From: Thauera chlorobenzoica
Lineage (GTDB): Bacteria; Pseudomonadota; Gammaproteobacteria; Burkholderiales; Rhodocyclaceae
Direction of reading: 5' to 3'
Assembly (NCBI RefSeq): GCF_001922305.1
Contig: NZ_CP018839.1
Span: 1,612,001-1,676,000 of the forward strand
DNA length: 64,000 nt
Part shown: piece after piece, positions 41,413 through 48,129 of the stretch
Layout: the number at the start of each line of letters is the position of its first letter
How positions within the stretch are numbered: the stretch's first letter is position 1
Position numbers and translations under genes: made by a program
The notes under the pieces: model-generated
What the model was told of the DNA's origin: nothing
Databases searched by the model: none
What the model saw: only the letters and a program-made list of their open reading frames with translations

Positions 41413-42426
41413 TCACTTCCAGGGGCGGTAATAGGCGCCCAGGGTGTGGGCCTGGCCTTCCGAGACCTTGTTGAGCTCGGCCATCCACGCCGGCAGCACG
41501 GTGAACGATTCGGGCCCCGCCCGCAGCTTGTCGAGCGCGGCGCGCCAGACCTTGGTGACCTGGGTGACGTAGGCCGGGCTGCGCTGGCGGCCCTCGATCT
41601 TGATCGCGCGGATGCCGATGCGGGCCAGTTCGGGGAGCAGCTCCAGGGTGTTGAGGCTGGTCGGCTCCTCGAGCGCGTAATAGGTCTCGTCGTTGACTTC
41701 GAAGCGGCCCTTGCACAGCGTCGGGTAGCCGGCACGCTCGCCCTCGGCGAAGCGGTCGATGAGGATGCCGTTGAGGCGGGTTTCCATCCCCTGCGGGGTG
41801 TCTTCCCAGCGCACGTGCTTGCCCGGCGAGCAGGCGCCGTTGCAGTTGGGCGATTCGCCGGTGGCATAGGCCGACAGCGCGCAGCGGCCCTCGACCATCA
41901 CGCACAGGCCGCCGAAGCCGAACACTTCGATTTCCACCGGCGAGTTGGCGATGACGTTCTCGACCTGGGCGAGCGAGAGCACCCGCGGCAGCACCGCGCG
42001 CTGGATGCCGAAGCGCTCGTGGTAGAAGTTGATCGCCTCGTAGCTGGTGGCCGAGCCCTGCACCGACAGGTGCAGGCGCAGACCCGGGTGGGTCTTGGCG
42101 GCGTAGGCCATCAGCCCGGGATCGGCGAGGATCAGCGCATCGAGGCCGAATTCCGCGGCGCGGTCGATGGCGGCGGTCCAGCTCGACCAGTTGCCGGCCT
42201 GCGGGTAGGTGTTGAGCGCGAGCAGCACCTTGCGGCTGCGGGCGTGGGCGTAGGCGATGCCTTCGCGCATCTGCGCCGGATCGAAATTCAAGCCGGTGAA
42301 GTTGCGCGCGTTGGTGGCGTCCTTGAAGCCGAGATAGACGCAATCGGCGCCGTGGTCGATGGCGGTCTTGAGGGCCGGCAGGCTGCCGGCGGGGCAGACG
42401 AGCTCGATCGGGGGGCGGACGGTCAT
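41413..42426 (-). CDS. ubiU: Oxygen-independent ubiquinone hydroxylase subunit UbiU
   Basis: A 337-residue U32 protein opening MTVRPPIELVCPAGS. C175, C182, C199 and C238 have exactly the 7/17/39 spacing of the E. coli UbiU cluster ligands. It is the UbiV partner in ring hydroxylation without oxygen and the first gene of ubiU-ubiV-ubiT. ATG 42426 is supported by homology and by a promoter and FNR-type site 30-75 bases upstream. Confidence 0.92.
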   Translation of the reverse strand: MTVRPPIELVCPAGSLPALKTAIDHGADCVYLGFKDATNARNFTGLNFDPAQMREGIAYAHARSRKVLLALNTYPQAGNWSSWTAAIDRAAEFGLDALILADPGLMAYAAKTHPGLRLHLSVQGSATSYEAINFYHERFGIQRAVLPRVLSLAQVENVIANSPVEIEVFGFGGLCVMVEGRCALSAYATGESPNCNGACSPGKHVRWEDTPQGMETRLNGILIDRFAEGERAGYPTLCKGRFEVNDETYYALEEPTSLNTLELLPELARIGIRAIKIEGRQRSPAYVTQVTKVWRAALDKLRAGPESFTVLPAWMAELNKVSEGQAHTLGAYYRPWK

Positions 42427-42458
42427 GGTGTGCGGGAGCGGGGGAGAAGAACCCTGCA

Positions 42459-42464
42459 ACCATA
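42459..42464 (-). promoter_or_regulatory. -10 element of the ubiUVT promoter
   Basis: TATGGT on the minus strand (four of six). It implies a start near 42452, which puts the FNR-type palindrome centre at -41.5, the class II activator position. The -35 region is occupied by the FNR site, as expected. Confidence 0.5.
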
Positions 42465-42486
42465 GTCCACCGCCGCCCGCCTCGCG

Positions 42487-42500
42487 TTGATCGCCATCAA
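42487..42500. promoter_or_regulatory. FNR/Dnr-type operator upstream of ubiU
   Basis: TTGATCGCCATCAA is a perfect match to TTGAT-N4-ATCAA. It is centred 67-68 bases before the ubiU start codon. Confidence 0.82.
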
Positions 42501-42565
42501 ACGCTGCCGTGGTTGTCCGCTCGGCAGGTTGCGGCAAGGCGCCTGCCAGAGGGGCGGAGTGCCGC

Positions 42566-44026
42566 TCAGCGCGGTTGGTGATAGGTGCCTGCGGCGGCGT
42601 GGTGGCCGCCGATGTGCGGGCGGTGGTGGGGGCGGGCGCCGAGGTAGCCGCCGATCAGCATCCCGAGGGCGCTCGCCGCGAGGCCGTAGAGCTGGGGCTC
42701 GACATCGCCTTCGGCGACGAAATTCTCCAGCAGCAGCCAGGTCGCCAGGCCGAGCACGATCGCCAGCGCCGCCCCCAGGTTGTTCGCGCGCCGCCAGAAC
42801 AGGCCGGCGGCAAGGGGCACGAAGGCGCCGGCCAGGGTCACGCGGTAGGCGTTCTCGACCATCTCGTGGATGCTCGATTCGGTGGCGGTGGCGTACCAGG
42901 TGACCAGCGCGGTGAACAGCACCACGGTGAGACGCGTGCTCCACAGGAACTGGCGGTCGTTCATGCCCGGCAGGAAGCCGCGGAGGACGTTTTCGGAGAA
43001 GGTCACCGAGGGCGCCAGCAGGGTGCCCGAGGCAGTGCTCATGATCACCGACAGCAGGGCGCCGAAGAAGATCACCTGGGCGTAGAACGGCATGTATTGC
43101 AGGATCAGGGTCGGCAGGATCAGCTGCGAGTCCTGTGCCATCAGGCGCTCGACCATCGCGGGGTCGATGATGTTGGCGGTGTAGGCGAGGAACAGCGGCA
43201 CTGCGGCGAAGAAGAAGTAGCTCACGCCGCCGAGCGTCGTGCCCCACACCGCGACGGTCTCGTTCTTCGATGAATTGACGCGCTGGAAGACGTCCTGCTG
43301 CGGGATCGAACCCAGCGCCATGGTGGCGAAGGCGGCGATCCAGGCGATCAGGTCGACGATGTCGAGGGTGGGCAGGAAGTCGAACTTGCCTTCGGCCGCA
43401 GCTCTGGAAATCACCGTCTCGAAGCCTCCGGCCATGTCGCCGGCGATCCAGGTCACCCAGAGCAGGCCGAGGATGATCACGATCATCTGGACGAAGGTGG
43501 TCATTGCCACCGACCACATGCCGCCGAACAGGGTATAGACCAGCACCACGCCGGCGCCGATCAGCATGCCTTCGTTCATCGATACGACGTCGGCCGACAG
43601 CACGTTGAACACCAGGCCGAGCGCGGTGACCTGCGCCGCGACCCAGCCCAGGTAGGACAGCACGATGCAGATCGACAGCACCAGCTCGGTGCTGCGGTTG
43701 TAGCGCATGCGAAAGAAGTCGCCCAGGGTGAGCAGGTTCATGCGGTACAGCGGGCGGGCGAAGACGAGGCCGAACAGCACCAGGCACACCGAGGCGCCGA
43801 GCGGATCGGAGATCAGGCCGCGAAAGCCCTCTTCGAGGAAGGTGGCGGAGATGCCGAGCACGGTCTCGGCCCCGAACCAGGTGGCGAACACCATCGCCAG
43901 CACTACCACCATCGGCAGGTTGCGCCCGGCGGTGATGTAGTCGCGGGCGTTGTGCACCCGGGTGGCGGCATACAGGCCGATGCCGATGGAGACGATCAGA
44001 TAGGCGACGACAAGCCAGAGCAGCAT
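42566..44026 (-). CDS. Sodium/solute symporter (SSS family)
   Basis: A 486-residue protein with about thirteen hydrophobic segments. SSS features include YITAGRNLP, ATWFGAETVLG, FGGMWSVAMTTFVQ and GSIPQQDVFQR. It uses a sodium gradient to import an organic solute; the substrate (proline, pantothenate, acetate and so on) cannot be read from sequence. The C-terminal tail is His-rich (PHHRPHIGGHHAAAGTYHQ), which is odd for the family. It follows the arginase/aminotransferase gene by 174 bases on the same strand, so an amino-acid substrate is a reasonable guess. Confidence 0.82.
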   Translation of the reverse strand: MLLWLVVAYLIVSIGIGLYAATRVHNARDYITAGRNLPMVVVLAMVFATWFGAETVLGISATFLEEGFRGLISDPLGASVCLVLFGLVFARPLYRMNLLTLGDFFRMRYNRSTELVLSICIVLSYLGWVAAQVTALGLVFNVLSADVVSMNEGMLIGAGVVLVYTLFGGMWSVAMTTFVQMIVIILGLLWVTWIAGDMAGGFETVISRAAAEGKFDFLPTLDIVDLIAWIAAFATMALGSIPQQDVFQRVNSSKNETVAVWGTTLGGVSYFFFAAVPLFLAYTANIIDPAMVERLMAQDSQLILPTLILQYMPFYAQVIFFGALLSVIMSTASGTLLAPSVTFSENVLRGFLPGMNDRQFLWSTRLTVVLFTALVTWYATATESSIHEMVENAYRVTLAGAFVPLAAGLFWRRANNLGAALAIVLGLATWLLLENFVAEGDVEPQLYGLAASALGMLIGGYLGARPHHRPHIGGHHAAAGTYHQPR

Positions 44027-44200: not shown

Positions 44201-46366
44201 TCACTGGATGAAGGCCGGATGCGGGTGCGGCACGCTGGTGTGCGGGCCGGGATAGGTGCGCAGCACGGTGATGATGGTCTGTGCGGCAGCGTCAAGCACG
44301 TCCTCGTCGATCACCAGGGGGGGGGCGAGGCGGACCACGTTGCCATTGGTGTCGCGGGTGGCGATGCCGGCGGTGAGCAGACGTTCGGCGACTTCGCCGG
44401 CATCGGCGAATGCCGGGTCGAGGGCGACGCCGACGAGCAGGCCGCGACCACGGATTTCGCGAACGCCGGGAAGCTTCGCCTGGCGCAGTTGTGCGATCAG
44501 CTTCGCCCCGAGGCGCTCGGCGTGCTCCCAGGGACGCGTTTCGGCAAGCAGGGCGAGCACTTCGGTGCCGACCGCGGCAGCCAGCGGGTTGCCGCCGAAG
44601 GTGGAGCCGTGGTCGCCGGGGCGGAATACGTCCATCACCGCGCGGTCGGCGAGGAAGGCGGAGGCCGGCAGCAGGCCGCCGCCGAGCGCCTTGCCCAGGA
44701 TCAGGCCGTCCGGGCGCACGCCTTCATGCTCGCAGGCGAGCAGGCGGCCGGTGCGGCCGAGCCCGGTCTGCACTTCGTCGGCGATCAGCAGCACGTGATG
44801 GCGGCGGCAGATCTCGGCGCAGCGCGACAGGTAGCCCGGGGGCGGGACGATGATGCCGCCTTCGCCCTGGATCGGCTCGACCAGGAACGCCGCGGTTTCG
44901 GGCGTGATCGCGGCTTCGAGGGCGTCGGCGTCGCCGAAGGGCACACGCTCGAGCCCGGCGGGGAAGGGGCCGAAGCCGGCACGGTAGCGCGCGTTGGAGG
45001 ACAGGCCGATGATCGCGATCGAGCGGCCGTGGAAATTACCCTCGCAGGCGATGATCCGGGCGCGCTCGGGGGCGATGCCCTTGACCTCGTGGCCCCACTT
45101 GCGCGCGGCCTTGAGCGCGGTCTCCACCGCCTCCAGCCCGGTATTGACCGGCAGCGCGCGCTCGAAGCCGAAGGTGGTGCACAGGCGCTCGAGGAAGACC
45201 GGCAGGCGGTCGCTGAAAAAAGCGCGCGAGGTCAGCGCCAGGCGCTGCGCCTGGGTGACGAGCGCGTCTACCAGGCGCGGGTGGCTGTGGCCGAAGCTCA
45301 CCGCCGAGTAGGCGCTCATCATGTCGAGGTAGCGCCGGCCATCGACGTCCCACAGCCAGACGCCCTCGCCGCGCTGGAATACCGCCGGGAGCGGGGCGTA
45401 GTTGGCGGCGCCGTAACGCCTTTCCCTGGCCTGCAGGCTGGTGCCGTCAGGGCCGAGGGCGGCGACGGCGAATTCCGCGATCCACCGTGCGCCGTGCCGC
45501 TCGGGGTCGAGGTCGGGGCGGTATTCGACGATTTCCAGCCCGACCAGGTCGGGGCAGGTGCGCAGGCGCATCAGCGCCTCGGCGAGGGCGCGCGGGTCGA
45601 GGCCGTCGGCCTCCGGGCAGGTCACCGCGGGGAAGGCCTGTGGGTCGAGCGCGTCGAGATCGAGGCTGAGCCCGAAGCCGGCCTCGGGGTCGGCGCGCGC
45701 GATCGCCATCGCCTCGGCGAACACCGCGGCGAGGCCGCGGCGATCGATCTCGGCCATCTCGAACACGCGCACGCCCAGGCGCGCGAGCAAGGCCTGCTCT
45801 TCCGGCTCCCAGGCGCGCGCGCCGATGATGCAGGTGCGCGCGGGGTCGAGCGCCGGTCCGGGGATCGCGGTGAGGGACGGGTGGCCGGTGCCGAGCAGGG
45901 CAGCCAGCGGCATGCCGTGGATGTTGCCCGAATGGGTGCTGCGCTCGGTGTGGCTGTCGAGGTGGGCGTCGACCCAGATCAGTCCGGGGGCGCGCCCGCA
46001 TCGCCGCCCGAGCCCGCGCCAGGTGCCGGTGGCGATCGCATGGTCGCCGCCGAGCACGAGCGGGAAACGGCCAGCGGGCAAGGCCGCGAGGCGGTCGGCA
46101 AGGCAGCGTGCAAAGCTGGCGCAGGCCTCGATCCGGCTGTGCATGTCGGGCGCTGGCGAGGGCGGCGGCAGCGGATGCAGGGGGTCGAGCCATTCGGCGG
46201 CGACCCCGATCGCGTTCAGGCGCTGCGCCACGGCACCCTCGCGTAGCGCTTCCGGTGCGCTCGCAGGGCCGGCATGCGGAGCGCCGAGCGCCGAGGCGGC
46301 GCCGATGATCGCTACGGTTGAATGCGGAGAGCGTAGTTCGGCGGGGTCGTTTCGGGCTGTCGTCAT
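44201..46366 (-). CDS. Fused arginase-ornithine aminotransferase
   Basis: A single 721-residue frame with two complete enzymes. Residues about 16-305 are an arginase. The metal ligands H109 (GGDH), D133/H135/D137 (DAHLD) and D236/D238 (DLD) are intact, as are the THSGNIHG loop with H150 and E281. Residues about 315-710 are ornithine 5-aminotransferase. They carry SAYSAVSFGHSHPR, NTGLEAVETALKAARKWG, IADEVQTGLGRTG, PLP lysine K559 and HGSTFGGNP. The tyrosine that gives OAT its ornithine preference in the human enzyme corresponds to F384. The product would convert arginine to urea and glutamate semialdehyde. I find no frameshift or stop at the junction. The symporter gene downstream may feed it. 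Confidence 0.9.
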   Translation of the reverse strand: MTTARNDPAELRSPHSTVAIIGAASALGAPHAGPASAPEALREGAVAQRLNAIGVAAEWLDPLHPLPPPSPAPDMHSRIEACASFARCLADRLAALPAGRFPLVLGGDHAIATGTWRGLGRRCGRAPGLIWVDAHLDSHTERSTHSGNIHGMPLAALLGTGHPSLTAIPGPALDPARTCIIGARAWEPEEQALLARLGVRVFEMAEIDRRGLAAVFAEAMAIARADPEAGFGLSLDLDALDPQAFPAVTCPEADGLDPRALAEALMRLRTCPDLVGLEIVEYRPDLDPERHGARWIAEFAVAALGPDGTSLQARERRYGAANYAPLPAVFQRGEGVWLWDVDGRRYLDMMSAYSAVSFGHSHPRLVDALVTQAQRLALTSRAFFSDRLPVFLERLCTTFGFERALPVNTGLEAVETALKAARKWGHEVKGIAPERARIIACEGNFHGRSIAIIGLSSNARYRAGFGPFPAGLERVPFGDADALEAAITPETAAFLVEPIQGEGGIIVPPPGYLSRCAEICRRHHVLLIADEVQTGLGRTGRLLACEHEGVRPDGLILGKALGGGLLPASAFLADRAVMDVFRPGDHGSTFGGNPLAAAVGTEVLALLAETRPWEHAERLGAKLIAQLRQAKLPGVREIRGRGLLVGVALDPAFADAGEVAERLLTAGIATRDTNGNVVRLAPPLVIDEDVLDAAAQTIITVLRTYPGPHTSVPHPHPAFIQ

Positions 46367-46462
46367 CGCACACCTCCCATGGCACGTGTGGTTGGGGATG
46401 GCCGAAGCTTCAGTCCGTTGGATGGAGGCGGGCGGGAATCGTTCAGCCGCCCCGGGCGCGGC

Positions 46463-47992
46463 TCAGCCGAGCAGGCGATGGAGCTCGAGGGCGAGCACGG
46501 CGGCGGCGGCGACGCCGACGAGGGCGAGCAGCCAGCCCTGCTGACGCTGGCCGGCGGCGAGCTGGTCGAGGCGTTGCTGCTGGGCGGCCTGCTGGCGGGG
46601 GGCGTCGCTGAGGGCCTGATGCACCAGGCGCGGCAACTGCGGCAGGGTGCCGGCCCAGGCCGGGGCTTCTTCCTTGAAGCCGCGGGCGAGCGCGCGCCAG
46701 CCCATCTGCTCGTCCATCCAGCGCTCGAGGAAGGGCTTCGCCGTCTTCCACAGGTCGAGCTCGGGGTCGAGCTGGCGGCCCAGGCCCTCGATGTTGAGCA
46801 GGGTCTTTTGCAGCAGCACGAGCTGCGGCTGCACTTCCATCTCGAAGCGGCGCGCGGTCTGGAACAGGCGCAGCAGGGTCTTGCCGAAGGAGATGTCCTT
46901 CAGTGGCTTGTCGAAGATCGGCTCGCACACGGTGCGGATCGCCGCCTCGAACTCGTCGACGCGGGTCTTCGCCGGCACCCAGCCGGCCTCGATGTGGGCG
47001 AGCGCGACGCGGCGGTAGTCGCGCTGGAAGAAGGCGAGGAAGTTCTGCGCGAGGTAGTTCTTGTCCACCTCGTTGAGCGTGCCCATGATCCCGAAGTCGA
47101 GCGCGATGTAGCGCCCGTCCTGATGCACGAAAATGTTGCCCGGGTGCATGTCGGCGTGGAAGAAGCCGTCGCGGAACACCTGGGTGAAGAAGATCTCGAC
47201 CCCGGCGCGCGACAGTGCCTTCATGTCGGTGCCCTGGGCGAGCAGCGCCGGGGTCTGCGAGATCGGCACGCCGTGCATGCGCTCCATCACCATGACCTTG
47301 CGCCCGCACCAGTCCCAGTACACTTCGGGCACGATCAGGAGTGCGGAGTCCTTGAAGTTGCGCCGCAGCTGCGAGCAGTTGGCGGCCTCGCGCATCAGGT
47401 CGAGCTCGTCGTGCAGGTACTTGCTGAATTCGGCGACCACTTCGCGCGGCTTCAGGCGGCGCCCTTCGGGCCAGATCTTCTCCAGCAGCAGGGCGGCGGC
47501 GTCGAGCAGGGCGAGGTCGTGCTCGATGACGCGCTCGATGCCGGGGCGCAGCACCTTGACCGCCACTTCGGTGCCGTCGGGGAGGCGGGCGAAGTGCACC
47601 TGGGCGACCGAGGCCGAGGCCACCGGGATGCGTTCGAAGTCGTCGAAGACGGTGTCGATCGGCTTGCCGTAGAAGCCTTCGAGCACGGCGAGGGCCTGCT
47701 CGGTGGGGAAGGGCGGCACCCGGTCCTGGAGCAGCGCGAGTTCGTCGGCGAGGTCGGTCGGCAGCAGATCGCGCCGGGTGGACAGCATCTGGCCGAATTT
47801 GACGAAGATCGGCCCAAGCGACTCCAGCGCGCGGCGCAGGCGCACCGCGCGCGGCTCGGAAAAACCGCGCCAGAAATAGACCACGTGCCAGATGCGCGCC
47901 AGCCGGCCGCTGGCGTCGGCGTCGAGCACCATGCGGTCGAGGCCGAAGCGCAGGCTGACGGAAACGATCTTGGCGAGGCGGAAAAGGCGCAC
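46463..47992 (-). CDS. ubiB: Ubiquinone biosynthesis kinase-like protein UbiB
   Basis: About 509 residues from GTG 47992 ([19 protein letters not shown]). The open frame continues to 48100, but the extra codons are Pro/Arg-rich and unlike UbiB starts. [14 protein letters not shown] carries the family KxGQ motif; [21 protein letters not shown] and ALDFGIMG are ABC1/ADCK signatures. A Gln-rich C-terminal part precedes one final membrane segment ([15 protein letters not shown]). It supports coenzyme Q assembly, probably by extracting lipid intermediates. It is divergent from argS. Confidence 0.88.
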
Positions 47993-48129
47993 GGTGCGAT
48001 GCCGGACGGGGAAAGGCCGGACTTTAGCCGGAAAGGGGGGGCGGGGAAAGGGCGCCTCCGGCGGCCGGCGGCCGGTCCCAGCCGCAACGACTGCACACAA
48101 GCTGTGCCGGGCGGGGCGGAGCGATCCGT

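Follow-up and report, generated by a model that had tools for sequence, protein, structure and literature searches.

The window analysed here, a stretch of 64,000 nucleotides from Thauera chlorobenzoica (contig NZ_CP018839.1, positions 1,612,001 to 1,676,000, assembly GCF_001922305.1), carries on its minus strand a single gene in which an arginase-family domain is followed by an ornithine aminotransferase (OAT) with its lysine for pyridoxal phosphate (PLP). The start codon is the ATG at window position 46366, preceded by GGGAGGTG. The parts of the gene are:

44201..46366, minus strand: complete fused gene, 721 amino acids, arginase-family domain then OAT (open reading frame list, Pfam, database relatives)
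46371..46378, minus strand: GGGAGGTG, Shine-Dalgarno-like, immediately 5' of the ATG (by eye)
45461..46318, minus strand: ureohydrolase domain of the arginase family, residues 17-302; H139 and E187 stand where human arginase I has Asn130 and Asp183 (Pfam, alignments)
45413..45460, minus strand: residues 303-318, separating the two Pfam matches (alignment of 142 fused rows)
44264..45412, minus strand: OAT domain, residues 319-701, with the PLP lysine K559 (Pfam, NCBIfam, alignments)

The initial annotation had described one uninterrupted frame of 721 residues at 44201-46366, without giving its strand, and had claimed for it a complete arginase and a complete OAT. The frame stands, on the minus strand, and both domains are complete: the metal ligands H109, D133, H135, D137, D236 and D238 (ligand list from an excerpt of PMC5648838), the substrate-loop H150, E281, the PLP lysine K559 and the SAYSAV and ARKWG blocks are all present. 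Pfam matches Arginase at residues 17-302 (E 4.7e-52; PF00491, 177.6 bits against a cut-off of 22) and Aminotran_3 at residues 319-701 (E 7.3e-115), and at E <= 0.001 PF00491 and PF00202 are the only domains found by the Pfam scan. A 764-residue open reading frame on the plus strand crosses the gene and is read as a high-GC mirror frame. Conservation was followed over 142 fused rows, 141 of them distinct, made up of the window, 120 database proteins and 21 loci, near-copies included. Counted as single residues, the metal ligands, H150, E281 and K559 are invariant in these rows, except for H135 (141/142). H150 and E281 are the counterparts of human arginase His141 and Glu277. One fused relative, P0113, has Arg in place of H135 and Asp in place of E187, and is perhaps inactive or a sequencing error. 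E281 and Y323 lie 42 residues apart in 137 of the 142 rows and 44-46 in L020, L092, L093, L094 and L099. Moreover, the predicted structure of the fused protein has a predicted template modelling score (pTM) of 0.83, which suggests a defined arrangement of the two domains. All folds listed by the fold searches were of the class-III aminotransferase type, the arginase half not having been folded by itself.

The fusion is not restricted to this genome. Both domains are found in all of the best 120 of 7576 database matches to the fused protein; the closest among the matches listed carries the name Thauera aromatica and has 93% identity, and among the other names are Azoarcus, Aromatoleum, Zoogloea, Azonexus and Pseudothauera. 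The names given to these 120 proteins by the source databases are ornithine--oxo-acid transaminase or ornithine aminotransferase, with a single hypothetical protein; arginase is mentioned in none, which may be because the arginase half misses the NCBIfam arginase cut-off. A scan of species genomes gave at least 562 relatives, from which 80 loci were kept, and a single-frame fusion is present in 13 of these (two Aromatoleum, five Zoogloea, two Azonexus, one Sterolibacterium, one Oryzomicrobium, one Rhodocyclales metagenome-assembled genome (MAG) and one Burkholderiales MAG).

A profile of the junction, which on the loci scored fused genes at 284 bits or more and lone OATs at 183 bits or less, was used to survey wider groups. 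The own genome is counted in each survey, some genomes recur across surveys, and no more than 8-11 candidates per genome were scored in any survey, so that misses are possible. The initial annotation had proposed mapping proteins that align over both halves, and the fusion proved to occur in many genera: at E <= 1e-60 junction-spanning matches were obtained in 80 of 297 genomes and 25 of 68 genera of the own family. The first profile position covered is 23 or 24 in five of these matches and 39 in another, which lies in a 443-residue frame. In the own order they were obtained in 12 of 399 genomes, five from the own family and seven from four other families. Class and phylum gave 10/321 and 3/349 genomes (E <= 1e-55). 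Besides the own genome, the nine class matches comprise seven with one to three internal stops, one (L099, genome G747) without a stop but with ambiguous bases, of which two fall at the junction, and one (G743) covering only positions 55-191, in a 721-residue frame. L099 was kept among the 142 fused rows, forms a separate group in the first OAT and arginase trees and was left out of the larger OAT tree. Of the two remaining phylum matches, one covers only an OAT and the other is a split pair. The plasmid survey matched 2169 records, 29 of which match over 80% or more of the query at a single place, in every case below 60% identity. Five of these 29 were considered as independent plasmid fusions and rejected, since L110-L112 are split by a stop, L113 has the OAT before the arginase and L114 holds two annotated genes. 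No relative was confirmed in viral contigs.

Separate but adjacent genes are found in related bacteria. In L095-L098, L100, L101 and L103 an arginase gene ends in a stop codon and the ATG of an OAT gene follows 3-21 nucleotides after it; six of these seven loci carry His/Glu at the two arginase sites listed above and one (L103) Asn/Asp, and L058 is the same sequence as L096. The opposite order, OAT first, is seen in Ralstonia (L022), a Burkholderiaceae MAG (L028) and Alicyclobacillus (L083). The class and phylum surveys detect split pairs only when both genes share a frame, and this shared frame is no evidence in itself because the search reads one frame. Nevertheless, same-frame pairs raise the thought that two genes were joined here by an assembly or frameshift artefact, since a single error would be enough to fuse them. 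We give this practically no credence: a 93% identical fusion is named Thauera aromatica, fusions extend across many genera and the spacing from E281 to Y323 is constant in 137 of 142 rows, so that with the same junction in independent genomes the artefact is in practice already refuted. The fused label requires one change on the quick OAT tree and one on the larger OAT tree. The trees allow, and weakly support, one origin, and the simplest reading would be a single fusion of a pre-existing arginase-OAT gene pair, which likely lost its intervening stop codon in an ancestor of these Betaproteobacteria.

The OAT half passes the NCBIfam ornithine--oxo-acid transaminase equivalog TIGR01885 (488.3 bits, cut-off 378.4) and stays below the cut-off of a second OAT model, NF003145 (485.2, cut-off 656). 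In human OAT, Tyr55 and Arg180 hold ornithine while Tyr85, Glu235 and Arg413 line the site (excerpt of PMC13327489); the equivalents of Tyr55, Tyr85, Arg180, Glu235, Arg413 and Lys292 are Y323, Y353, R448, E502, R679 and K559, kept in 142/142 fused rows. It had been claimed that F384 replaces the tyrosine that helps select ornithine, and that the specificity of the second half therefore deserved testing. This does not hold, since Tyr85 aligns to Y353, which is kept, and F384 to Tyr116. Query residue 306 corresponds to human residue 38, the alignment is ungapped through query 409 and a structural alignment gives the same offset; the Y353 column is Tyr in all 142 fused rows and in all 254 unfused OATs examined. 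The worry thus arose from a misaligned residue, and it is the arginase half that most needs specificity testing. At residue 384 (window 45215-45217, human Tyr116 column) the 254 unfused OATs have 218 His, 35 Tyr and 1 Arg, and the fused rows 105 Ser, 11 Phe, 9 Tyr, 9 His, 5 Ala and 3 Gly. On the larger OAT tree at least six changes between His/Tyr/Arg and other residues are needed, recurring among the fusions. The alphaproteobacterial OATs L110-L112 have Arg in this column (by eye).

The genome has two PF00491 genes, the fused gene and hutG (318.7 bits, cut-off 229.15), and four Aminotran_3 genes, the fused gene, argD, bioA and hemL; no further arginase or OAT was recognised in it. A Pro_dh match lies in a frame of 1378 residues, the size of PutA. 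Genome searches for urease alpha, AstA and arginine deiminase gave no match, and none of 19 genome matches to urea carboxylase reaches the cut-off. Without a urease alpha match or a urea carboxylase above cut-off, urea would probably be released.

According to these data the fused protein is very probably a bifunctional enzyme of arginine breakdown. At the level of sequence, the case consists of complete domains, catalytic residues kept at the sites checked, a conserved fusion, same-order split pairs and a gene that is the only recognised arginase/OAT of its genome. The N-terminal half would hydrolyse L-arginine at a two-metal centre to ornithine and urea, and the C-terminal half, with PLP on K559, would transfer the delta-amino group of ornithine to 2-oxoglutarate, yielding glutamate semialdehyde/pyrroline-5-carboxylate (P5C) and glutamate; a PutA-type enzyme could then oxidise P5C to glutamate. 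Both activities, arginine as the first substrate, hand-over of ornithine within the protein, the assembly state and the release of unused urea are what we infer from this.

Several observations weigh against this reading. Both human arginase I residues Asn130 and Asp183 are replaced, by H139 and E187, a swap that the initial annotation missed, and the arginase half misses the NCBIfam arginase equivalog TIGR01229 (168.8 bits, cut-off 227.6). Human arginase I N130D uses arginine and agmatine about equally well (excerpt of PMC9224512). The fused OAT halves differ from unfused OATs at 15 columns under the criterion applied. The fused label requires two changes on the quick arginase tree, and support for the fusion branch is low, 67 in the first trees and 16 in the larger OAT tree. 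Within the own genus, six or more genomes have no junction match in the family survey, so the fused gene is patchy there or was missed. Finally, no activity is known for any member.

The Asn130 and Asp183 sites hold the alpha-carboxylate and the alpha-amino group of arginine, respectively. Among the 142 fused rows His is found at the first site in 141, Glu at the second in 140, both in 139 and at least one of the two in all. The first half might therefore be a ureohydrolase that acts on some guanidino compound other than arginine itself, for example agmatine or a modified arginine, with the second half using the product, given that the two changed sites recognise the amino-acid end of arginine (excerpt of PMC9224512) and that this half is below the arginase equivalog cut-off. 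We consider this improbable. Loop A of human arginase (129-140) decides between arginine and agmatine, and the chimera that became specific for agmatine also had three loop residues deleted (same excerpt), whereas here D137 and H150 are 13 residues apart, an arginase-length loop that aligns ungapped with solved arginases. Because the loop length is kept, arginine remains the likely substrate. Moreover, the OAT half keeps the Tyr55, Tyr85, Arg180, Glu235 and Arg413 equivalents, which fits ornithine, and unfused His/Glu arginases adjoin OAT genes, with the arginase first in L095-L098, L100 and L101 and the OAT first in L022 and L028.

Judged from the alignments, the H139/E187 swap also marks a group of unfused proteobacterial arginases. 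The 67 unfused arginases in the loci divide into 15 His/Glu, 52 Asn/Asp and none mixed, a ratio that is no census, as they were found with two patterns derived from the fusions. The His130/Glu183 proteins are L016, L018, L019, L021, L022, L025, L026, L028, L032, L033, L047, L049, L058, L079 and L084; L019 and L022, the only two scanned, are also below the NCBIfam arginase cut-off. The fused rows group with all included unfused His/Glu rows in one starred branch of the arginase tree (52 rows, support 100). In a gammaproteobacterial single-cell genome (L021:3063-5054) the arginase lies, by eye, in one open frame behind another protein, which looks like a ZapE/AFG1-type ATPase; this is a fusion or a missing stop. 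Returning to the bifunctional enzyme, the architecture of a single-chain arginase-OAT claimed initially is upheld by its presence in many genera, the same-order split pairs and the OAT equivalog. In view of H139/E187 and the missed TIGR01229 cut-off, the first half is an arginase-family member but only provisionally a strict arginase.

It is nearly an even chance that both activities are present and the fusion serves only to fix their ratio and co-regulation, with ornithine diffusing freely, which is compatible with a bifunctional enzyme. Many fused enzymes show no channelling, and the same-order split pairs evidently serve other bacteria. The almost fixed spacing between the domains and the defined arrangement at pTM 0.83 point the other way, if indirectly, as neither shows channelling. 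A bolder and rather unlikely proposal is a machine that retains its substrate and has as its base a separate proteobacterial class of His/Glu arginases that reads arginine differently, its OAT half adapted to ornithine delivered by the partner; such adaptation is proposed because several OAT columns carry fusion-specific changes. Bacterial arginases are hexamers. Since the crystal OAT is also a hexamer, of three dimers (excerpt of PMC13327489), both halves could by analogy share one D3 hexamer.

Two neighbours lie on the same strand:

46463..48100, minus strand: ubiB, upstream neighbour (840.4 bits, cut-off 667)
42566..44026, minus strand: sodium:solute symporter-like gene, downstream neighbour (best model 133.8 bits, below the cut-off of 184)

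Directly upstream of the fusion, ubiB recurs in seven of the 13 named fused loci (L007-L013) and lies about 2.8 kb upstream in L023; it was not seen within the available stretches of the other five. A relative of the symporter-like gene is downstream in two of the 13 (L007, L008). Two genes downstream is ubiU, of anaerobic ubiquinone synthesis (41413-42537; 560.9 bits, cut-off 440), so that with ubiB upstream the fused gene sits among quinone genes.

The fused arginase-OAT is a genuine, conserved architecture whose two chemistries are expected from known families, and no description of it was found in searches of an open-licence PubMed Central (PMC) library, a scope outside which subscription papers fall. 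In Rhodocyclales and neighbours it would provide a natural route by which one protein takes arginine to glutamate semialdehyde. It would also lend itself directly to tests of substrate channelling, since unfused pairs with this kind of arginase survive for comparison. An annotation gap is exposed as well, as the database names seen give the transaminase or nothing and never the arginase half, and attention is drawn to a subgroup of arginases whose substrate contacts have changed and which is open to immediate assay.

With arginase (RocF, EC 3.5.3.1; PDB 2ef4, 1cev and human arginase I) the fused protein shares the domain, the six metal ligands, the substrate-loop His, the catalytic Glu and the loop length, but it has His/Glu at the Asn130/Asp183 sites, misses the TIGR01229 cut-off and has an OAT attached. 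With OAT (RocD, EC 2.6.1.13; PDB 3ruy, 1oat) it shares the domain, the equivalog cut-off passed and the substrate and PLP residues checked, whereas the N-terminal arginase domain and several columns are unlike unfused OATs. The rocF-rocD genes of Rhizobium sp. NLR16a plasmid p3 (L114) and the gene pairs of L095-L098 have the same order, arginase directly followed by OAT, but make two proteins instead of one chain, and the alphaproteobacterial arginases L110-L112 are of the Asn/Asp type (by eye). On the Rhizobium plasmid (L114:1923-4640) an Lrp/AsnC regulator gene stands together with the arginase and OAT genes. Cyanobacterial AgrE likewise carries arginine via ornithine to the next step in one bifunctional protein; however, it joins an arginine dihydrolase to an ornithine cyclodeaminase, with different domains and proline as product (excerpt of PMC8262935). 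The fused protein is thus outside the AgrE family, and AgrE is the closest known protein by action.
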